A DNA stretch of 32,443 nucleotides from Calditrichia bacterium (lineage in GTDB: Bacteria; Calditrichota; Calditrichia; JAJRVZ01), in the NCBI GenBank assembly GCA_023132435.1, contig JAGLYF010000012.1:1-32443 (forward strand), given 5' to 3'. The notes below the pieces were generated by a model. The model searched no databases, was not told the origin of the DNA, and saw nothing but the letters and a program-made list of their open reading frames with translations. A program made the position numbers and the translations under genes. Below, piece by piece: positions 2,922-29,213 of the stretch (position 1 is the first letter of the stretch; each line of letters opens with the position of its first letter).

Positions 2922-2970
2922 GTTTAAGATTGCATTATCCCGACAAAGTCGGGATAATGCAATCTTAAAC
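2922..2970. terminator. Perfect 23-bp hairpin between convergent prc and dctM
   Basis: The left arm (2922-2944) and right arm (2948-2970) are perfect reverse complements of 23 nt around an AAA loop. The hairpin starts one base after the prc stop codon (2919-2921) and its right arm includes the TAA stop of the opposite dctM gene (2965-2967). Neither side has a run of T, so it is not a textbook intrinsic terminator, but a stem this strong between convergent genes probably ends or protects both transcripts. Confidence 0.7.
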
Positions 2971-4242
2971 TTCTAGTAAATCGACCAACCATAAACTCAA
3001 TTCGGGTATATAAGTTATCAACATCAGGGCAATCAGAAGTATAATGAGAAAAGGAATGGTTGCCACATATAACTTTAAAATCGGCTTTTCAAAGCGGAAT
3101 GAAGCAATGAACAGATTCATTCCTACCGGGGGCGTCGAATATCCGATTCCTAAATTGGCTAAAAAGATAATACCAAGATGCACTGGATCCACACCAAAAT
3201 TGATAGCGATAGGAGCGATCAAGGGTACAACTACCAGGATGGCCGAAAAAATATCCAGCATAGCGCCGACAATTAATAGAAATAAATTTAATACCAGCAA
3301 AAAGGCTATTTTTGAGGTGATAAATGTTTTCATCCAATCCAGGATTTGCATAGGAATTTCTTCATAGATCATATAATTGGCCATTCCCATTGCGGCGAAT
3401 AAAATTACCAGTATACCCCCTACCAGGATCATACTATCCTTCATCACTTTGGGCAGCCCTTTTGTCAGGCTGACTTCTTTATATATAAACACTTCCACAA
3501 TCAGAACGTAAAACGCCGTAACTGCAGCCGCTTCGGTTACCGTAAAAAAACCACCATATATTCCAACCAAAATTATAAACGGCAGGGGTATTTCCCAGGA
3601 AGCATTTTTAATCGCCTCCCAGGCCTTTTGAGCCGAGAATGGTTCCACTTTCGAGTGTACCTTTTTCATACGGTTTACACTATATACCGAAAGCAGCGTT
3701 ATCATTAACAATCCGGGAATGATTCCGGCTATAAAAAGTTTATCGATGCTGGTTTGAGAAACCAATCCATAGAGGATGATCGGGAGACTGGGTGGAAATA
3801 AAAGTCCCAAATTTCCTGAAGAAGTAAGAATTCCCAGATTAAATTTTTCAGGGTATTTTTCCTTTTGCAGGACCGGATATAATAGTCCTCCCAGTGCTAT
3901 TATTGTTACACCGGAGGCTCCGGTGAAAGCGGTAAATATAGCACATGAAACTAATGTGACAATGCCCAGTCCCCCGGGTAACCAACCGAAAAATGCCCGG
4001 GAAAGGGCGACCAGTCGTAGTGGTGTTTTACTTGCTGCCAGAAGGTAGCCGGCGAAGGTAAAAAGTGGGATGGCAAGAAGCACCGGCTGACTGGCAAGCC
4101 GGTATAATTCTATAATCACGGCAGATAAATCAATCTCAACAAAATAAAAAGCGATGAGCGCGATAGCCGCAATAATGACAAACAGACTGGTCCCAAACAG
4201 TGCAAAAAGTAATAAAAATAAACCTATCAGAAAGGTTGTCAT
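2965..4242 (-). CDS. dctM: TRAP transporter large permease (DctM-type, M subunit)
   Basis: Inner-membrane subunit of a tripartite ATP-independent periplasmic transporter, which uses an ion (usually sodium) gradient to import the solute delivered by the binding protein. At 425 residues it has the usual length for the family. It is hydrophobic throughout with about 11-13 membrane segments. Family-typical stretches include FTGASGVTIIALGGLLYPVL (about 105-125), TSSGNLGLLFPPSLPIILYG and NLGIGYSTPPVGMNLF near the C-terminus, the last being the second half of the M-subunit inverted repeat. Its ATG overlaps the upstream dctQ stop by 4 nt (ATGA), so the two are translationally coupled. Last gene of the operon; it ends inside the strong hairpin shared with prc. 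Substrate cannot be read from this subunit. Confidence 0.93.
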   Translation of the reverse strand: MTTFLIGLFLLLFALFGTSLFVIIAAIALIAFYFVEIDLSAVIIELYRLASQPVLLAIPLFTFAGYLLAASKTPLRLVALSRAFFGWLPGGLGIVTLVSCAIFTAFTGASGVTIIALGGLLYPVLQKEKYPEKFNLGILTSSGNLGLLFPPSLPIILYGLVSQTSIDKLFIAGIIPGLLMITLLSVYSVNRMKKVHSKVEPFSAQKAWEAIKNASWEIPLPFIILVGIYGGFFTVTEAAAVTAFYVLIVEVFIYKEVSLTKGLPKVMKDSMILVGGILVILFAAMGMANYMIYEEIPMQILDWMKTFITSKIAFLLVLNLFLLIVGAMLDIFSAILVVVPLIAPIAINFGVDPVHLGIIFLANLGIGYSTPPVGMNLFIASFRFEKPILKLYVATIPFLIILLIALMLITYIPELSLWLVDLLEV

Positions 4243-4742
4243 GAGTCACCACCTTTCTGTGTTCGGAAAACTTCGACAATATTTTCCAGGGCCAGGATCA
4301 GAAACCTGAAAGACATAAGGAAAAAGCCTATCGGGATAATAATCTGGAAATACCAGGCAGGAACATCAGCAAAAATCTCGGTGCCCATCATTTGTTCGTC
4401 CTGAACAAAGGTCCAGCTGGCATTGGCCAATAAATAACAGATAAACACAGAAAAAAGATTCGTCACAAACCGGACAACAGTTTTCCCTTTATCAGACAAA
4501 AACCGGCTGAAAAGATCTATATTGATATGTTTTTGTTTACGTGTGGCCAGTGACGCTCCAAGAAACCCCACCCAGAGAACAAGGTGCCGAAGAAAAATAT
4601 CGCCCCACAGGATACCTTCATGAAATATATTTCGTAAAATTACCTGAAGGAAGGCAAAGATCACCATAATTCCTAGCACAAAAACAAGGACGATTGTCTC
4701 AGCCCTTTCAATCCACGAATTTAGCTTTTCTATTATTCTCAT
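4239..4742 (-). CDS. dctQ: TRAP transporter small permease (DctQ-type, Q subunit)
   Basis: Small inner-membrane subunit of 167 residues with four hydrophobic segments (about 16-38, 47-68, 88-108, 128-152), the normal layout of DctQ. The stretch LRHLVLWVGFLGASLATRKQ is typical: the family carries a conserved Trp and a Gly-Ala-Ser before a basic loop. It pairs with DctM, whose start codon overlaps the dctQ stop by 4 nt. Q and M are separate genes here; from memory, the TatT-associated system of Treponema carries them fused. A 258-bp gap containing an inverted repeat separates it from the binding-protein gene, which is long for one operon. Confidence 0.88.
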   Translation of the reverse strand: MRIIEKLNSWIERAETIVLVFVLGIMVIFAFLQVILRNIFHEGILWGDIFLRHLVLWVGFLGASLATRKQKHINIDLFSRFLSDKGKTVVRFVTNLFSVFICYLLANASWTFVQDEQMMGTEIFADVPAWYFQIIIPIGFFLMSFRFLILALENIVEVFRTQKGGDS

Positions 4743-5000
4743 GACCTATTTTACCATCTCTTTTTGTATCAACAAATAATAAGTGTACGGCTAAAATTAT
4801 TCAGTTTCAACTTATGATTGCCCTCTCATATCAGAATAGGGGGCTAAGGGGTGAGTTTTTTTTAACCACGGAAGGACACTGAAAAACACAGAACTTATTA
4901 ATTTAAAATAATTGTACCTAATAGCTTAAATATAATTTAATTCATTCCGTGTATTTATCCGTGGTATTCCGTGGTCAAAAAAAAATATAAAGCAGCTAAA
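4743..5000. other. Intergenic gap inside the TRAP operon with a long inverted repeat
   Basis: This gap holds no gene. A phrase at about 4823-4855 (CCCTCTC...AGGGGGCTAAGGGGTGAG) resembles widespread CCCCTTA-type repeats. From 4856 to 4985 there is an inverted pair: eight T, one base, then ACCACGGA (4856-4872), matched by TCCGTGGT, one base, then nine A (4968-4985), around a 95-nt AT-rich centre. Transcribed from either strand it could fold as a stem and lower expression of the permease genes relative to the binding protein; that role is inference. Confidence 0.6.
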
Positions 5001-5999
5001 TCAATTGGCCTGATCCGATCTATATTTATCCAGTAAATCTTCAACTTTAAACAGAAAATCTTCATCATATAATTTGCCGATCAGATCACGGCGGGCTTTT
5101 TTTCCTGATTCGTAAAAACTATCTATATTGTTTTTATCATCTATTGTAGTAAAAGTGATCCCCGTTTCTTTGAGTAATTGTAGCGATTCTGCATTGTCTT
5201 TACGACTTAATTGAGTGAGCTGGTCGAAATACTCACGTGAAAGTTTTTTCAAAATCTCTTTTTCTGTATCACTTAACCTGTTGAATTTCTTCTTTGATAT
5301 TAATATCGCCCCATTGGAATCGGCCAGAGGGAGATCAAGCATATATTTTACTTTTGTGTGCCATTGTACAACAGTACATGCATAAGGGGAAATATATACA
5401 CCATTGATCAAATTTGTTTGTAATGATGTCAATACGTCCGTAATAGAAAGTGGAATAGGACTGATATTAAAAGCCCTGAAAGTTGCTTCTGCAATGGGAT
5501 CGCCTTCCCACATCCACATTTTTACACCATTCATATCTTCTAAGGCATTGATAGGTTTATTGGTAAATACATACACGAATCCAACTTCTGCCCAACCGAG
5601 AAGGATAAATCCCTTCTCTTCAAACTTTTTTGAGAAATAATTATAAAAATGTTCGGCTACAAAATCAACTTCTTCATAGGACCTAAATAAAAAAGGAGAA
5701 TCCATGATCCGAACTTCCGGTAATATTTCTCCCAACCCGACCCCGGTAAACCCCCCGCTGTCGAGTTGACCGATACGAATTTTTCTTAAGACATCTTTTT
5801 CATCACCGGCAACCTGACCTGGATAAATTTTAAATTCAATCTCGTTGTTGGTAGCATCCTCAACAGCATTTGCGTACTCTCTCATCACCTTCATCCAGGT
5901 AGATCCCTCAGGCGCAACTGTGGCAAATCTGATTTTTGTTTGTCCAAAAACCAATCCTACAGAGAATATCATAAAAGCTACGATAATATATCTTCGCAT
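5001..5999 (-). CDS. dctP: TRAP transporter substrate-binding protein (DctP-type)
   Basis: Periplasmic solute receptor of 332 residues. Signal peptide MRRYIIVAFMIFSVGLVFGQ (cleavage after about residue 20), then the DctP fold: KIRFATVAPEGSTWMKVM (22-39), GLGEILPEVRIMDSPFLF (88-105), and SITDVLTSLQTNLINGVYIS (185-204), the family's substrate-pocket region. The family-signature Arg of the GLKIR-type motif, which binds the ligand carboxylate in SiaP/DctP proteins, is replaced: the sequence reads DMNGVKMWMWEG (155-166) with W162 in its place. The ligand may therefore not be a simple carboxylate. Preceded by tatT 90 bp upstream and followed by dctQ-dctM. Could be called TatP by analogy with the Treponema TPAT system. 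Confidence 0.92.
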   Translation of the reverse strand: MRRYIIVAFMIFSVGLVFGQTKIRFATVAPEGSTWMKVMREYANAVEDATNNEIEFKIYPGQVAGDEKDVLRKIRIGQLDSGGFTGVGLGEILPEVRIMDSPFLFRSYEEVDFVAEHFYNYFSKKFEEKGFILLGWAEVGFVYVFTNKPINALEDMNGVKMWMWEGDPIAEATFRAFNISPIPLSITDVLTSLQTNLINGVYISPYACTVVQWHTKVKYMLDLPLADSNGAILISKKKFNRLSDTEKEILKKLSREYFDQLTQLSRKDNAESLQLLKETGITFTTIDDKNNIDSFYESGKKARRDLIGKLYDEDFLFKVEDLLDKYRSDQAN

Positions 6000-6089
6000 A
6001 CAGCCTCCTGGTCGTGAAAGAATCTTTATTCCCTTATATCCTTATTCCCCTATACCCATATATCTTATACCCTTTTATTACTAAGTACT

Positions 6090-6950
6090 TTAAAACCAAT
6101 TTTCACCAAATTCCCTTAAGTACTTTACCTTCTTTTTTGCAATCATATTCAGAAATTGGTACCCTGGCAGGACATCGGCCGGAGTTTTTTCTATTTTAAC
6201 GATAAAACTGTTAAAAAGATCTTCATCCAGAACTCTCGCCGCATAATACAGGGCATAGTAAACATAGGTAAGTAAAAATTTACCTTCTGTTATCTGTAGA
6301 TTTCTTTCAAAGTGTTCTTTTGCTTTCTCAGGATCCCCACCCAGCATCCTTGGTTTAATTCCCCATATACTGCCGAAAAAGAGGTGGGTAGATCCATGAA
6401 AGTAAGTTTCATCAATTTCAAGCACTCGTTGCATCAATACCTGTACTTTTGTTAAATCAATCATTGCCCGCGGATTATCGATACTCAGATTGATCCAACC
6501 GGCCCAGGCAAAACCGGTCCAGAACAGGGCGTCAACATAATCCTCATCCAGATTGTTGACCGCAAGCGTATAATCATCAAGCGATCCTGTATCAGCTTCA
6601 GCAAAATCATCATCCTCGCGCAATACACGCAATCCATACTCCTTTGCCCGCAGATAAAATACCTTTGCCCGCTCAGGCTCCTCATCTTCCGCAAAGCCGA
6701 GGGCATATCCGGCAAGGGCCTTAGCCGTAAGTAACAGCAAATGTTCATTTTCAGGATCACCTTTTATCATTCCCTCTAATAATTTTATATCCGATGCCAT
6801 GGCCTGCTCAGCAAGTTTTAGATCTGTTTCTTCATATAAAGCAAGAACACCATAATCAAGCAAACCGGCTGTTTGCCGGATGATAAATCGGTCCATACTA
6901 CAGGCCTGAAATAAAAATATTCCTATAAAAATAAATAGTGTTTTTCGCAT
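6090..6950 (-). CDS. tatT: TatT-like TPR lipoprotein, TRAP transporter-associated
   Basis: A 286-residue lipoprotein of the TAtT family (TRAP-associated tetratricopeptide protein; T. pallidum Tp0956 is the type member). The signal ends in a lipobox-like FQAC with C17; Ser at +2 suggests the outer membrane. The rest is helical: DYGVLALYEETDLKLAEQAM, then repeats such as AKVFYLRAKEYGLRVL and NLDEDYVDALFWTGFAWAGW, the last being family-typical. In TPAT systems TatT is thought to form a complex with the P protein and hand it ligand. The reading frame is open up to 7097, but residues upstream of MRKTLF are translated intergenic repeat, so I place the start at 6950. No clear Shine-Dalgarno is seen; the heptamer array lies directly upstream. 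Confidence 0.85.
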   Translation of the reverse strand: MRKTLFIFIGIFLFQACSMDRFIIRQTAGLLDYGVLALYEETDLKLAEQAMASDIKLLEGMIKGDPENEHLLLLTAKALAGYALGFAEDEEPERAKVFYLRAKEYGLRVLREDDDFAEADTGSLDDYTLAVNNLDEDYVDALFWTGFAWAGWINLSIDNPRAMIDLTKVQVLMQRVLEIDETYFHGSTHLFFGSIWGIKPRMLGGDPEKAKEHFERNLQITEGKFLLTYVYYALYYAARVLDEDLFNSFIVKIEKTPADVLPGYQFLNMIAKKKVKYLREFGENWF

Positions 6951-6957
6951 CTTGCTA

Positions 6958-7020
6958 CTCGTTTCTCGGTTCTCGTTGCTCGGTTCTCGTTTCTCGGTTC
7001 TCGGTTCTCGGTTCTCGGTA
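6958..7020 (-). repeat. Heptamer tandem array, 9 x 7 bp, just upstream of tatT
   Basis: Nine units of CTCGGTT/CTCGTTT on the plus strand, that is AACCGAG/AAACGAG when read in the sense direction of tatT. The array ends 7 nt before the tatT ATG. The same family, in the same orientation relative to the gene, precedes the genes at 16781 and 18381. Confidence 0.9.
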
Positions 7021-7025
7021 TTGAA

Positions 7026-7156
7026 TGTCATCCCTGTCCCTTTTGTCATTCCTGCGAAAGCAGGAATCCAAAGGGATAAACTCCAGCAGGGATCCATGTA
7101 TAAATATTGCCTAAGTCATTGTTATTTTATAGATTCCCGCTTCCGCGGGAATTACA
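7026..7156. repeat. Palindromic intergenic element
   Basis: Begins TGTCATCCCTGTCCC and ends GCGGGAATTACA, a slightly decayed match to the GAATGACA end of its relatives. Internal hairpins are ATTCCTGC-GAAA-GCAGGAAT (7049-7068) and ATTCCCGC-TTCC-GCGGGAAT (7133-7152). It shares the GGGATAAACTCCAGC segment with the element at 227-346. Translated, it gives the well-known spurious peptide IPAFAGMT. Confidence 0.75.
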
Positions 7157-11237: not shown

Positions 11238-11777
11238 ATGATAAAAAACCTTGCGGAATTTACTCATCAGACACTGACACGGATTGTCTTTGCCATCACA
11301 TTTTTTGCCCTGATCGGTGCATCACTTGTTTTTCTATTCGAAGGCAGTGTCAACGAGCAATTTAAGGCCATGGGCGATGCAGTCTGGTGGGTCCTTGTGA
11401 CCATGACAACGGTCGGTTATGGGGATAAGGTACCAATGACAACCGGTGGTAGAGTCATCGGTATTATTATTATGTTTTTTGGGTTAGCCTTATTATCTTC
11501 CTTTACAGCAACCATTTCATCATTTTTTATCACAAAAAAAATTAAAGAGGGTAGAGGTTTGGAAGAGATAAAATTAAAAAACCATCTGATTAGTTTCAGC
11601 AACATTCTTAGCGATGATTATTCATATATCGATCAGTTTATTCGAAGAAAATTTGAGGAAGCCGGTCGGGGATTGAGTGAAGAAAAGAGGATAAATATTC
11701 GTATAAATCCGGTCTCCGAAACAATTATAGATTCAAAAGATTTTCTTATTTTGATTAGTAAGGGAGACAACCTTTAG
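11238..11777 (+). CDS. Two-helix potassium channel lacking its RCK (TrkA-N) domain
   Basis: 179 residues. TM1 lies at about 14-35, the pore helix and selectivity filter at 47-63 (WWVLVTMTTVGYGD, filter T58-V-G-Y-G-D63), and TM2 at about 72-97. The filter is that of a K+-selective channel. In ligand-gated bacterial channels of this type TM2 leads through a linker such as EIKLKNH into a Rossmann RCK domain of 130 or more residues. Here EIKLKNHLISF (110-120) is followed within 40 residues by INPVSETIIDSKDFLILISK (156-175), which looks like the very end of a TrkA-C/RCK-C domain. The nucleotide-binding part appears to be missing with the frame intact. Followed 58 bp later by the unknown 608-residue gene. 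Confidence 0.85.
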   Translation: MIKNLAEFTHQTLTRIVFAITFFALIGASLVFLFEGSVNEQFKAMGDAVWWVLVTMTTVGYGDKVPMTTGGRVIGIIIMFFGLALLSSFTATISSFFITKKIKEGRGLEEIKLKNHLISFSNILSDDYSYIDQFIRRKFEEAGRGLSEEKRINIRINPVSETIIDSKDFLILISKGDNL

Positions 11778-26493: not shown

Positions 26494-26510
26494 TCATTCT
26501 GAGGGCTTTT
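26486..26510 (-). terminator. Intrinsic terminator of rpoZ overlapping its stop codon
   Basis: AAAAGCCCTCA / TGAGGGCTTTT is a perfect 11-bp stem around a 3-nt loop, followed on the minus strand by an uninterrupted run of T. The first arm (in rpoZ sense) encodes Lys-Pro-Ser near the protein's C-terminus; the TGA stop (26494-26496) begins the second arm. Confidence 0.9.
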
Positions 26511-26811
26511 CATCTTTATTCACATCTTTTTCGGAAATGTACCGATATTTTATCTTGCCGTTCAATAACTGGTTTTGAGCAATAACCGTTGGATTGATCT
26601 CTCTTTCATGCTCGATTCCTTCCATGAATTCACGGTCATATATATCCAGCTCCTGATCATATCCTGACTCTTCCAGTATTTCTTTTTCTTTTCGTTCAGC
26701 AATTCTTCCCGCATTTATTTCTCTGGCCCGTTTAGCGATGACAAGACAAGCTTCATATACATTATCGGTTTGCATTTCTAAGTCTTTCAAATCTAATGTC
26801 TTAATGGCCAT
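26494..26811 (-). CDS. rpoZ: DNA-directed RNA polymerase omega subunit
   Basis: 105 residues. The core TDNVYEACLVIAKRAREINA (about 14-33) is the RpoZ/Rpb6 signature (Asn/Asp-x-Tyr-Glu-Ala ... Ala-Lys-Arg-Ala-Arg-x-Ile-Asn), where the helix clamps the beta-prime C-terminus. The tail from about 40 is acidic (ESGYDQELDIYDREFMEGIE) and then conserved-looking NPTVIAQNQLLNGKIKYRYI. I chose the ATG at 26811 because GGAG (26818-26821) lies 6 nt upstream; the frame is open to a TTG at 26841, which has no ribosome site. It is 70 bp downstream of the symporter gene. In many genomes rpoZ follows gmk; that neighbour is not here. Confidence 0.88.
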   Translation of the reverse strand: MAIKTLDLKDLEMQTDNVYEACLVIAKRAREINAGRIAERKEKEILEESGYDQELDIYDREFMEGIEHEREINPTVIAQNQLLNGKIKYRYISEKDVNKDEKPSE

Positions 26812-26881
26812 GCACATCTCCATTTTATTCAGGTTTATCAAAGAAATTTAATATAATAACTATGTTGTGTCAATTAATATT

Positions 26882-28102
26882 TCAGACATTGAGTTCTTCA
26901 CCTTCCAGGCGGGCTACAATAACTGCTCCCACACTGTCACTCAACACATTGACTGTTGTTCGGAACATATCAAGAATGCGATCAACAGCGAGAATAATTG
27001 CCACCCCTTCTAGCGGTAATCCAACTGCCTTTAGAATAATGGACATCATGACAAGACCACTCATTGGAACACTGGCTGCTCCAATTGATGCAAGAAGTGC
27101 CGTTATAACTACAATCATCTGTGCACCAAAGGACAGATCAATACCATACACCTGAGCAATAAAAATAGTCGCCACGCATTCATATAAGGCAGTTCCATCC
27201 ATATTGACGGTCGCTCCAATCGGGAGTGTAAAACTTGCTACTTTTCTGGAGACTTTTGAATTCCCGGTAACGGCATGCATTGTTAATGGAAGTGTGACAA
27301 TCGAAGAGCAGGTGGAGAAGGCGGTAAGTAAAGCCGCTGGCATTCCTTTATAATGCCTGAGTGGTTTGATTCGGGCAACCAATCGAAGCATAAGAGGCAA
27401 ATTAATACAAGCATGGATAAACAAACCCAATAAAACAACGGCAAAATAAACACCCAGAGATTTAAATGCACCAAATCCGGATTTAGCGACAATACGTGCC
27501 ATAATGCCGAAGACTCCCAGGGGTGCACTCCAAACTACAAACCGCGTCATTTTCATCATTGTCTCAAACGCAGCCTGAAAAAAAGTGCTCAGTTGCAACT
27601 TTGATCTATCTGACAACCGTGTGATAAAATATCCAAAGAGGATTGAAAAAAAGATAACAGGTAATACATCGCCTGATGCCATTGCCTGGAATGGATTCTC
27701 AGGTATAATATGTAAAAGAAGATCGGAAATACTCTGTTCGGCTGCAACTACTTTTTCCGGCGTTTCCTCCAAACCGATTTCAGCACCTGTTCCCGGGCGA
27801 AAGATGTTTACCAGAATCAATCCGGTTATGATAGCAAAAAACGAACTGGCTATATAATAGCTAAAAGTCTTTATCCCTAACCGGCCAAGACCAACCGCAT
27901 CCCCGACGCTAACCACACCTGAAATTATGGAAGTTATAATTAGTGGCATAATAGCCATACGTAGCAAACGTAAAAAAACTTCGGCAAAAAACTCCGCATA
28001 GGGTAAAATTGGCGTCCCGATCTGCCAGCCGGCTAAGGCGCCAAAAATCAGACCAATAAAGATGTAATGGGTTAGGTTAAGTTTATTCAGGACCAATGGC
28101 AC
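26882..28102 (-). CDS. Dicarboxylate/acidic amino acid:cation symporter (DAACS, GltP/DctA type)
   Basis: 406 residues, about eight membrane helices plus two re-entrant loops. Family motifs: SGVVSVGDAVGLGRLGIKT, the serine-rich substrate loop region AFSTCSSIVTLPLTM, NMDGTALYECVATIFIAQVYG (sodium and substrate binding), SIGAASVPMSGLVMMSIILK, and DRILDMFRTTVNVLSDSVGA, where the Asp and Arg of DMFRTTVNV bind aspartate or glutamate. The Arg there is the residue that in this family reads the side-chain carboxylate, so an acidic amino acid or dicarboxylate is the likely substrate. The start is GTG (28100-28102), overlapping the 3' end of the KamA-like gene by 20 bp; translational coupling is likely. 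No Shine-Dalgarno is visible. Confidence 0.93.
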   Translation of the reverse strand: MPLVLNKLNLTHYIFIGLIFGALAGWQIGTPILPYAEFFAEVFLRLLRMAIMPLIITSIISGVVSVGDAVGLGRLGIKTFSYYIASSFFAIITGLILVNIFRPGTGAEIGLEETPEKVVAAEQSISDLLLHIIPENPFQAMASGDVLPVIFFSILFGYFITRLSDRSKLQLSTFFQAAFETMMKMTRFVVWSAPLGVFGIMARIVAKSGFGAFKSLGVYFAVVLLGLFIHACINLPLMLRLVARIKPLRHYKGMPAALLTAFSTCSSIVTLPLTMHAVTGNSKVSRKVASFTLPIGATVNMDGTALYECVATIFIAQVYGIDLSFGAQMIVVITALLASIGAASVPMSGLVMMSIILKAVGLPLEGVAIILAVDRILDMFRTTVNVLSDSVGAVIVARLEGEELNV

Positions 28103-29213
28103 GATAAGGATTCTCGATTGAATACTCTCTTATAATCTCATCATAATCATCATACCAGTAAGCGTTTGGATTTCGTTTAAATATCATAAAACGTGCTTTT
28201 TCTTGTGGATTGGCCGCCCGGTGATAACGAAAATAAACTCTTTCCTCTGTTTGGCCAACAATCTCGATTTTACCTGTACTATGTGACATTACCAGGCGAG
28301 ACCGTTTGGCCAGGCCGGAGCACTTCATACGCGCTTGTTCAAAAATTTCAAACGCTTTTTCAACCGGAATTGCATAGGTTTTGTTACCTAATGTTGGCCT
28401 GCAAATAAATAGATAATAAGGAGGGATCCCAATATATGATAGTTTATTAAACAATTCTGCTAACACATTGGGATCATCATTTACACCACGAATTAAAGGG
28501 GTTTGATTGACTGTAACCGCACCGGTTTCTCTTAACCGATTCATCCCTTCAATTGCTTCCCTGGTTAATTCTCTGGGATGATTAAAATGTGCCATTATAT
28601 AAATTTTCTTTTCATCCGTACTGTATTTATGAAATAAATCGAAGAGTGATGGATCGTTTAATACCCGGTAAGGATTAAAGACAGGAACTTTTGTACCAAT
28701 GCGGATAATTTGTACATGCTCAATTTCACGCAAGGGCCGGATCACATTTTCCAGTTTATTGGTAGACATGATCAGAGGATCACCGCCTGTCAATAAAACA
28801 TTGTTAATCTCAGGATGCTCCCTGATATAATTAATTCCGGCAGTTATATCACGGACAACCTCATCATTATCATTCATAAAAATACGTTTACGAAAGCAGA
28901 ACCGGCAATAGGCGCCACAGACATCATTCACTAATAATAGCGCTGTAAATTCATACTTATGTTCAAGTCCCGGTACAACTGTATATTCCTCCTCATCGGA
29001 GGCATCCAGCCGACCCCAGGTGGCCAGTTCCGCCTGATTCGGGATCACAATACGCCGAATCGGATCATCAGGGTCATCCCAATTAATGAGTTTTTGATAA
29101 TATTCATTGGTCCGGAACATAAATTTTTCTGTAACTTTTTTCAGTTTTTTTCGTTCCCCGGCCGGGATTTCCGTTATCTGATCCAGATTGGTGATGTACT
29201 TTGGTTTATACAT
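28083..29213 (-). CDS. KamA-family radical SAM aminomutase, probable acidic amino acid 2,3-aminomutase
   Basis: 376 residues. The radical SAM cluster motif is C99-x3-C103-x2-C106 (CGAYCRFCFRKR). LLTGGDPLIMS (140-150) is the SAM-binding GGD motif, and K315 in SHSTGKIEIVG is the expected PLP lysine. In clostridial lysine 2,3-aminomutase, Asp293 and Asp330 hold the lysine side chain. By eye, Asp293 aligns with R272 (LFICRPTLG against LYQCDLSEG) and Asp330 with about S310 or V308. Lysine is therefore an unlikely substrate; loss of both Asp with gain of a basic residue recalls glutamate 2,3-aminomutase. Its 3' end overlaps the acidic amino acid symporter gene by 20 bp. AGGAAGGG lies about 8 nt before the ATG. 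EpmB-type function is an alternative but less fitting. Confidence 0.88.
   Translation of the reverse strand: MYKPKYITNLDQITEIPAGERKKLKKVTEKFMFRTNEYYQKLINWDDPDDPIRRIVIPNQAELATWGRLDASDEEEYTVVPGLEHKYEFTALLLVNDVCGAYCRFCFRKRIFMNDNDEVVRDITAGINYIREHPEINNVLLTGGDPLIMSTNKLENVIRPLREIEHVQIIRIGTKVPVFNPYRVLNDPSLFDLFHKYSTDEKKIYIMAHFNHPRELTREAIEGMNRLRETGAVTVNQTPLIRGVNDDPNVLAELFNKLSYIGIPPYYLFICRPTLGNKTYAIPVEKAFEIFEQARMKCSGLAKRSRLVMSHSTGKIEIVGQTEERVYFRYHRAANPQEKARFMIFKRNPNAYWYDDYDEIIREYSIENPYRAIGPE

Follow-up and report, generated by a model that had tools for sequence, protein, structure and literature searches.

The window analysed here, a stretch of 32,443 nucleotides that makes up one whole contig of a 3.7-Mb draft genome from a Calditrichia bacterium, encodes a KamA-family radical SAM protein belonging to an Arg-type branch set apart from lysine 2,3-aminomutase, glutamate 2,3-aminomutase (EAM) and EpmB. 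On balance, the evidence favours a 2,3-aminomutase acting on an acidic amino acid, with glutamate as the most likely substrate; the product, beta-glutamate, would be used as an osmolyte. This interpretation rests on the established chemistry of aminomutases, a specificity residue of reversed charge at the site that EAM uses, osmotic regulation in relatives, a distribution complementary to that of EAM and a solitary gene lacking an acetyltransferase.

In the proposed reaction, the Arg-type enzyme would cleave SAM at its [4Fe-4S] cluster, bind the amino acid through an aldimine with the PLP on K315 and shift the amino group from C2 to C3. The side-chain carboxylate, most likely that of glutamate, would be bound by R272, which occupies the column of Asp293 in lysine 2,3-aminomutase. 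The product, beta-glutamate (3-aminoglutarate), would act as a compatible solute under osmotic stress, and in the window genome a GltPh-type symporter encoded in the same transcript may import the acidic amino acid and might also recover product that leaks out.

Overall features of the KamA-family protein

The gene and the motifs of its product, all on the minus strand, are as follows.

28083..29213, minus: KamA-family radical SAM/PLP aminomutase of the Arg272 type, 376 aa, ATG start (open reading frame, TIGR00238, structure model, best PDB match 2a5h)
28896..28919, minus: CxxxCxxC [4Fe-4S]/SAM motif, C99-x3-C103-x2-C106, clade-invariant
28890..28892, minus: R108, column of KamA R134, kept in 202/202 family members
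28788..28790, minus: T142 ahead of the GGD motif (residue census)
28398..28400, minus: R272, column of KamA Asp293 (Lys in EAM), from alignments; invariant in 52/52
28269..28289, minus: M309-S-H-S-T-G-K315 loop in place of DAPGGGGK, carrying the PLP lysine K315 and lacking an Asp330 equivalent (alignments; predicted strands)
28146..28157, minus: W353-x-D-D C-terminal motif common to the Arg-type clade, W353 invariant and D355/D356 nearly so

The protein passes the general family model TIGR00238 (KamA family radical SAM protein; 226.3 bits, curated cut-off 199.2), the only KamA profile that it passes, and misses every equivalog cut-off: TIGR03820 for lysine 2,3-aminomutase (230.1 bits, cut-off 525.4), TIGR04368 for EAM (230.1 bits, cut-off 650), TIGR04468 for arginine 2,3-aminomutase (212 bits, cut-off 600) and TIGR03821 for EpmB (196.4 bits, cut-off 369.3). 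Its sole close PDB relative by sequence is 2a5h, the lysine 2,3-aminomutase of C. subterminale, which is also the top PDB match (TM 0.76) of its structure model (pLDDT 92.9). The original prediction that the cluster motif and the PLP lysine are retained is borne out, C99, C103, C106 and K315 all being invariant.

A second Arg-type KamA, 67% identical, is present in the window genome (L002; G000:C328:25259-26347). DksA/TraR zinc-finger genes precede it, and behind it lie genes for a carbonic anhydrase-like protein (PF20393) and for an exchanger of Na+/H+ or K+/H+ (PF00999).

A charge-reversed substrate pocket

Both aspartates by which lysine 2,3-aminomutase recognises lysine had been read as missing, and pairwise and multiple alignments agree; careful alignment places Asp at neither lysine-binding position. 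Pairwise alignment sets R272 opposite Asp293 of 2a5h, as first proposed. For the Asp330 position, Ser310 or Val308 had been suggested. The multiple alignments firmly indicate that the window protein has no Asp at this site, in keeping with that suggestion, and in the MAFFT multiple alignment the site falls in a gap of one residue between V308 and M309, the loop being one residue shorter, so that the exact facing residue cannot be fixed from sequence. The structure model predicts a strand (307-311), a turn and a second strand (314-321) in this region.

A residue census of the pocket took in 202 distinct members of the KamA family: 167 of them have R at position 272, 19 have D, and all 15 EAM have K. 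The arginine pairs with an MS[HT]-type loop in 166 proteins, a single further R having another loop, and the aspartate with a D-x-P-G loop in 19. At position 142, Thr is found in all EAM and in 141 Arg-type proteins, and Ser in all Asp-type enzymes. Among 52 diverse clade members, R272, P273, S310, H311, G314, K315 and W353 are invariant, and a pattern thus fixed across the clade is not attributable to chance. K315 is retained in 202/202 proteins, as is R108, whose KamA counterpart R134 binds the substrate alpha-carboxylate; this joint conservation suggests that the basic chemistry has probably been kept.

The original statement that EAM carries Lys and Asn in the two specificity columns is confirmed by 15 EAM loci and by the SFLD paper, which assigns these residues to glutamate binding (PMC3965090). 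The window protein has Arg at the first column and no Asn at the second, and the missing counterpart of the EAM Asn counts against glutamate as substrate.

The symporter and the gene neighbourhood

The KamA gene is followed by a transporter gene on the same strand.

26882..28102, minus: SDF-family (GltPh/aspartate transporter-like) symporter, 406 aa, GTG start, PF00375 413.8 bits
26945..26971, minus: symporter substrate motif DMFRTTVNV, gap-free alignment to DMARTTVNV of 9bgz

The open reading frames and the alignment uphold the predicted 20-bp overlap between the symporter start and the KamA stop, as well as the retention of DMFRTTVNV. The domain score and the TM8 D..RT..N motif place the transporter in PF00375, and its closest solved relatives are the aspartate transporters 9bgz/9bgy, with which it shares a RILDM-RTTVNV stretch. 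Judged by these signatures, it is a symporter of the acidic amino acid type (GltPh/EAAT family), which we count in favour of our preferred explanation.

The pairing of aminomutase and symporter, from which a joint function had been proposed, does not extend to relatives in general and was discarded as a rule, being found at two loci only. The second locus is that of Bacterium BMS3Bbin03, where a symporter 76% identical to that of the window is found near the KamA gene. The gene order differs there: the symporter is upstream, with a phosphatidylglycerol lysyltransferase-like gene between the two. The locus of L004, the closest family member, retains omega/Rpb6 and amidohydrolase as neighbours and has no symporter. 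The symporter may be a lineage-specific addition, and the lack of a generally conserved pairing counts against our preferred explanation. A conserved operon was likewise rejected as a functional clue, gene neighbourhoods being very different across relatives, with no partner emerging. In particular, no conserved acetyltransferase (ablB-like) partner was found across the relatives' neighbourhoods, where the gene is mostly solitary, unlike the ablA-ablB arrangement.

Other genes of the window include an RNA polymerase omega (Rpb6-like) gene beside the symporter and an Amidohydro_3 gene (26494-26841, minus strand), the omega-amidohydrolase order recurring in L004; a TRAP transporter cluster (2965-7097, minus strand) encoding DctM, DctQ, DctP and the T component TatT; and a small two-helix potassium-channel-like protein (Ion_trans_2; 11238-11777, plus strand).

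A widespread Arg-type clade separate from known aminomutases

Across species genomes, 542 encoded relatives were detected, of which the best 80 (58-70% identical) were kept. These best 80 of 542 come from Nitrospina, Nitrospinaceae, KSB1, Calditrichota, Latescibacterota, Chitinivibrionales, ANME-2, Methanoregulaceae, Methanolinea, Methanoculleus, Bryobacterales, Phycisphaerae and Aquificaceae, among others; marine or saline and methane-cycling lineages are common among them, which we count towards an osmolyte role. The more than 500 relatives overall also span Methanomicrobiales and Paenibacillales. In archaea, 183 matching genomes were found among 298 relatives of one Methanomicrobiaceae genome, most scoring within the range of the clade. 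No viral copies of the gene were found.

An IQ-TREE phylogeny, calculated from an alignment stripped of the specificity columns, separates the Arg-type proteins (main clade, CRPVKR type and CFRWPQF type) at 100/100 from the Asp-type enzymes, EAM and E. coli EpmB, with the caveat that the bootstrap is not fully settled and that EpmB and L031 form long branches. The protein thus falls outside the EpmB group, membership of which would have contradicted the original prediction, and an EpmB identity was dismissed on both this position and the score of 196.4 bits against 369.3. Because of the same split, the basic residues of the Arg type and of EAM most simply arose separately, and the tree suggests that the Arg of the clade evolved apart from the Lys of known EAM.

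Two further subfamilies were observed. The first (L023, L028, L029) consists of KamA-type proteins of ~450 aa with CFRWPQF instead of CFRKR, VxR[ND]TGAQHYF and SMSTxPGK; it also carries Arg at the specificity column and has similar matches in many genomes of the same class. The other, which makes a third Arg-type subfamily (L012, L153-L163, L222-L229), carries a CRPVKRV/CRPVKG motif, occurs in archaea and Bacillota, has mostly Ser before GGD and is devoid of a riboswitch where scanned.

Family membership agrees with the usual database annotation, that of a lysine 2,3-aminomutase, which would here recognise lysine by other residues and make beta-lysine or Ne-acetyl-beta-lysine. Such an enzyme is highly improbable: both lysine-binding Asp are lost, the invariant Arg would repel the epsilon-ammonium, the profile score is 230 against a cut-off of 525, no ablB-like partner is conserved and the Asp-type enzymes lie across the 100/100 split. 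Placement among lysine enzymes was rejected on the score and the split.

The separate origin of the pocket means that its substrate need not match that of EAM. An aminomutase for another acidic or polar substrate (aspartate, 2-aminoadipate, glutamine or a small dipeptide), in which R272 would bind a carboxylate or an amide and which would yield a different beta-amino acid or, starting from aspartate, the enantiomer, would also suit an R272 combined with a remodelled MSHxTGK loop unlike the Lys/Asn pair of EAM, as well as a symporter whose nearest solved relatives are aspartate transporters. Nevertheless, we regard this as unlikely, since beta-glutamate is well known as an osmolyte, a role that the riboswitch described below suits. 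Moreover, we know of no substrate other than glutamate for a basic residue at the Asp293 column.

Riboswitches and mutual exclusion with EAM

The osmolyte role in the original prediction gains support from c-di-AMP riboswitches upstream of relatives, which point to osmoregulation. Rfam searches detect such a riboswitch (RF00379) upstream of 12 of the 15 EAM loci and, in a first scan, also upstream of the Arg-type gene in one Paenibacillales-type genome, the order being named from gene content. In Paenibacillales, RF00379 is predicted on the same strand, 127-466 nt ahead of the start, in 27 of 30 Arg-type loci, and one of the three loci lacking it (L204) is cut at the gene start. A cobalamin riboswitch lies downstream of the KamA gene in another Paenibacillales-type locus (L211; 1117-1314, minus strand). 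No c-di-AMP riboswitch was found in the window or in the Arg-type loci scanned outside Paenibacillales, which counts against our explanation.

The only literature that we found on a KamA-type gene under a c-di-AMP riboswitch is a study of Na+ riboswitches (PMC9337991), in which the lysine aminomutase gene ablA of Dehalobacter has tandem Na+ and c-di-AMP riboswitches upstream and Na+ riboswitches also occur with eam. Together, these arrangements indicate that the riboswitch context marks osmolyte-making aminomutases in general. Since c-di-AMP control would also fit a lysine aminomutase (PMC9337991), it supports an osmolyte role and not glutamate in particular.

The Arg-type gene is present in 77 of 250 Paenibacillales genomes, and no EAM was found in the same 250 at E 1e-170, a threshold at which control genomes gave no match; the same model did recover 104 EAM in 300 genomes of the phylum. 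Among these 300 Bacillota genomes, 11 carry the Arg-type gene and none of these 11 has EAM (Fisher P 0.008, assuming independent genomes, which is a false assumption). This mutual exclusion may reflect lineage, not function.

The lack of a riboswitch near the window gene, the greatly varying neighbourhoods and the TRAP transporter cluster for organic acids in the same window would be compatible with an amino acid 2,3-aminomutase of catabolism or secondary metabolism, having no osmotic role in the window lineage, with the symporter importing a nutrient. We consider this distinctly unlikely, since relatives repeatedly show the riboswitch context and the best 80 of 542 matches are biased towards marine/saline lineages.

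A candidate source of beta-glutamate

Synthesis of beta-glutamate by the Arg-type enzyme would bear on an abundant metabolite. According to sections of PMC8269262, beta-glutamate is a major osmolyte of methanogens, rises with ocean depth and, at 730 mM, is the most abundant identified metabolite of Nitrosopumilus maritimus; those sections assign no gene to this high level. No archaeal AmoA was found in the 86 genomes searched for ammonia-oxidising archaea. A review passage reports early NMR work in which a glutamate aminomutase was ruled out as the source of methanogen beta-glutamate (PMC1224877), which counts against our explanation; the passage names no organisms tested. EAM, found in Bacillota in our genome searches, is the only beta-glutamate route with an identified enzyme that we found described.

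We tentatively propose, as a possibility somewhat short of probable, that glutamate 2,3-aminomutase evolved a second time, independently, as the Arg-type clade, which would be under c-di-AMP control in Bacillota and serve as the principal beta-glutamate synthase in marine nitrifiers, methane-cycling archaea and Paenibacilli. If so, it could explain part of the ocean's unexplained beta-glutamate, and together with EAM it would offer a clean case of the same substrate switch evolving repeatedly in a radical enzyme family. The clade is probably misannotated, and its wide occurrence, charge-reversed pocket and c-di-AMP control yield a single testable candidate gene.

Comparison with known systems

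The predicted symporter of the window resembles GltPh and the aspartate transporters of the SDF family in its TM8 motif and in a full-length, high-scoring alignment. EpmB, the EF-P beta-lysylation enzyme, and arginine 2,3-aminomutase share the KamA superfamily with the window protein; for the latter (TIGR04468) the score is below cut-off, and R272 is ill-suited to a cationic side chain. Lysine 2,3-aminomutase (KamA/AblA, TIGR03820, 2a5h) has the same fold and CxxxCxxC motif, and its R134 and K337 have equivalents in the window protein, whereas its Asp293 and Asp330 do not. EAM (TIGR04368, C. difficile type) matches the window protein in its radical SAM/PLP fold, in its motifs, in the basic residue at the Asp293 column and in the Thr before GGD and, like Arg-type relatives, has an upstream c-di-AMP riboswitch in Bacillota. 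However, EAM is only ~31% identical to the window protein, has Lys instead of Arg at the Asp293 column, an Asn with no counterpart, a NAPxGxGK instead of an MSHxTGK loop and CQRRR instead of the CFRKR of the clade, and lies on the opposite side of the 100/100 split.
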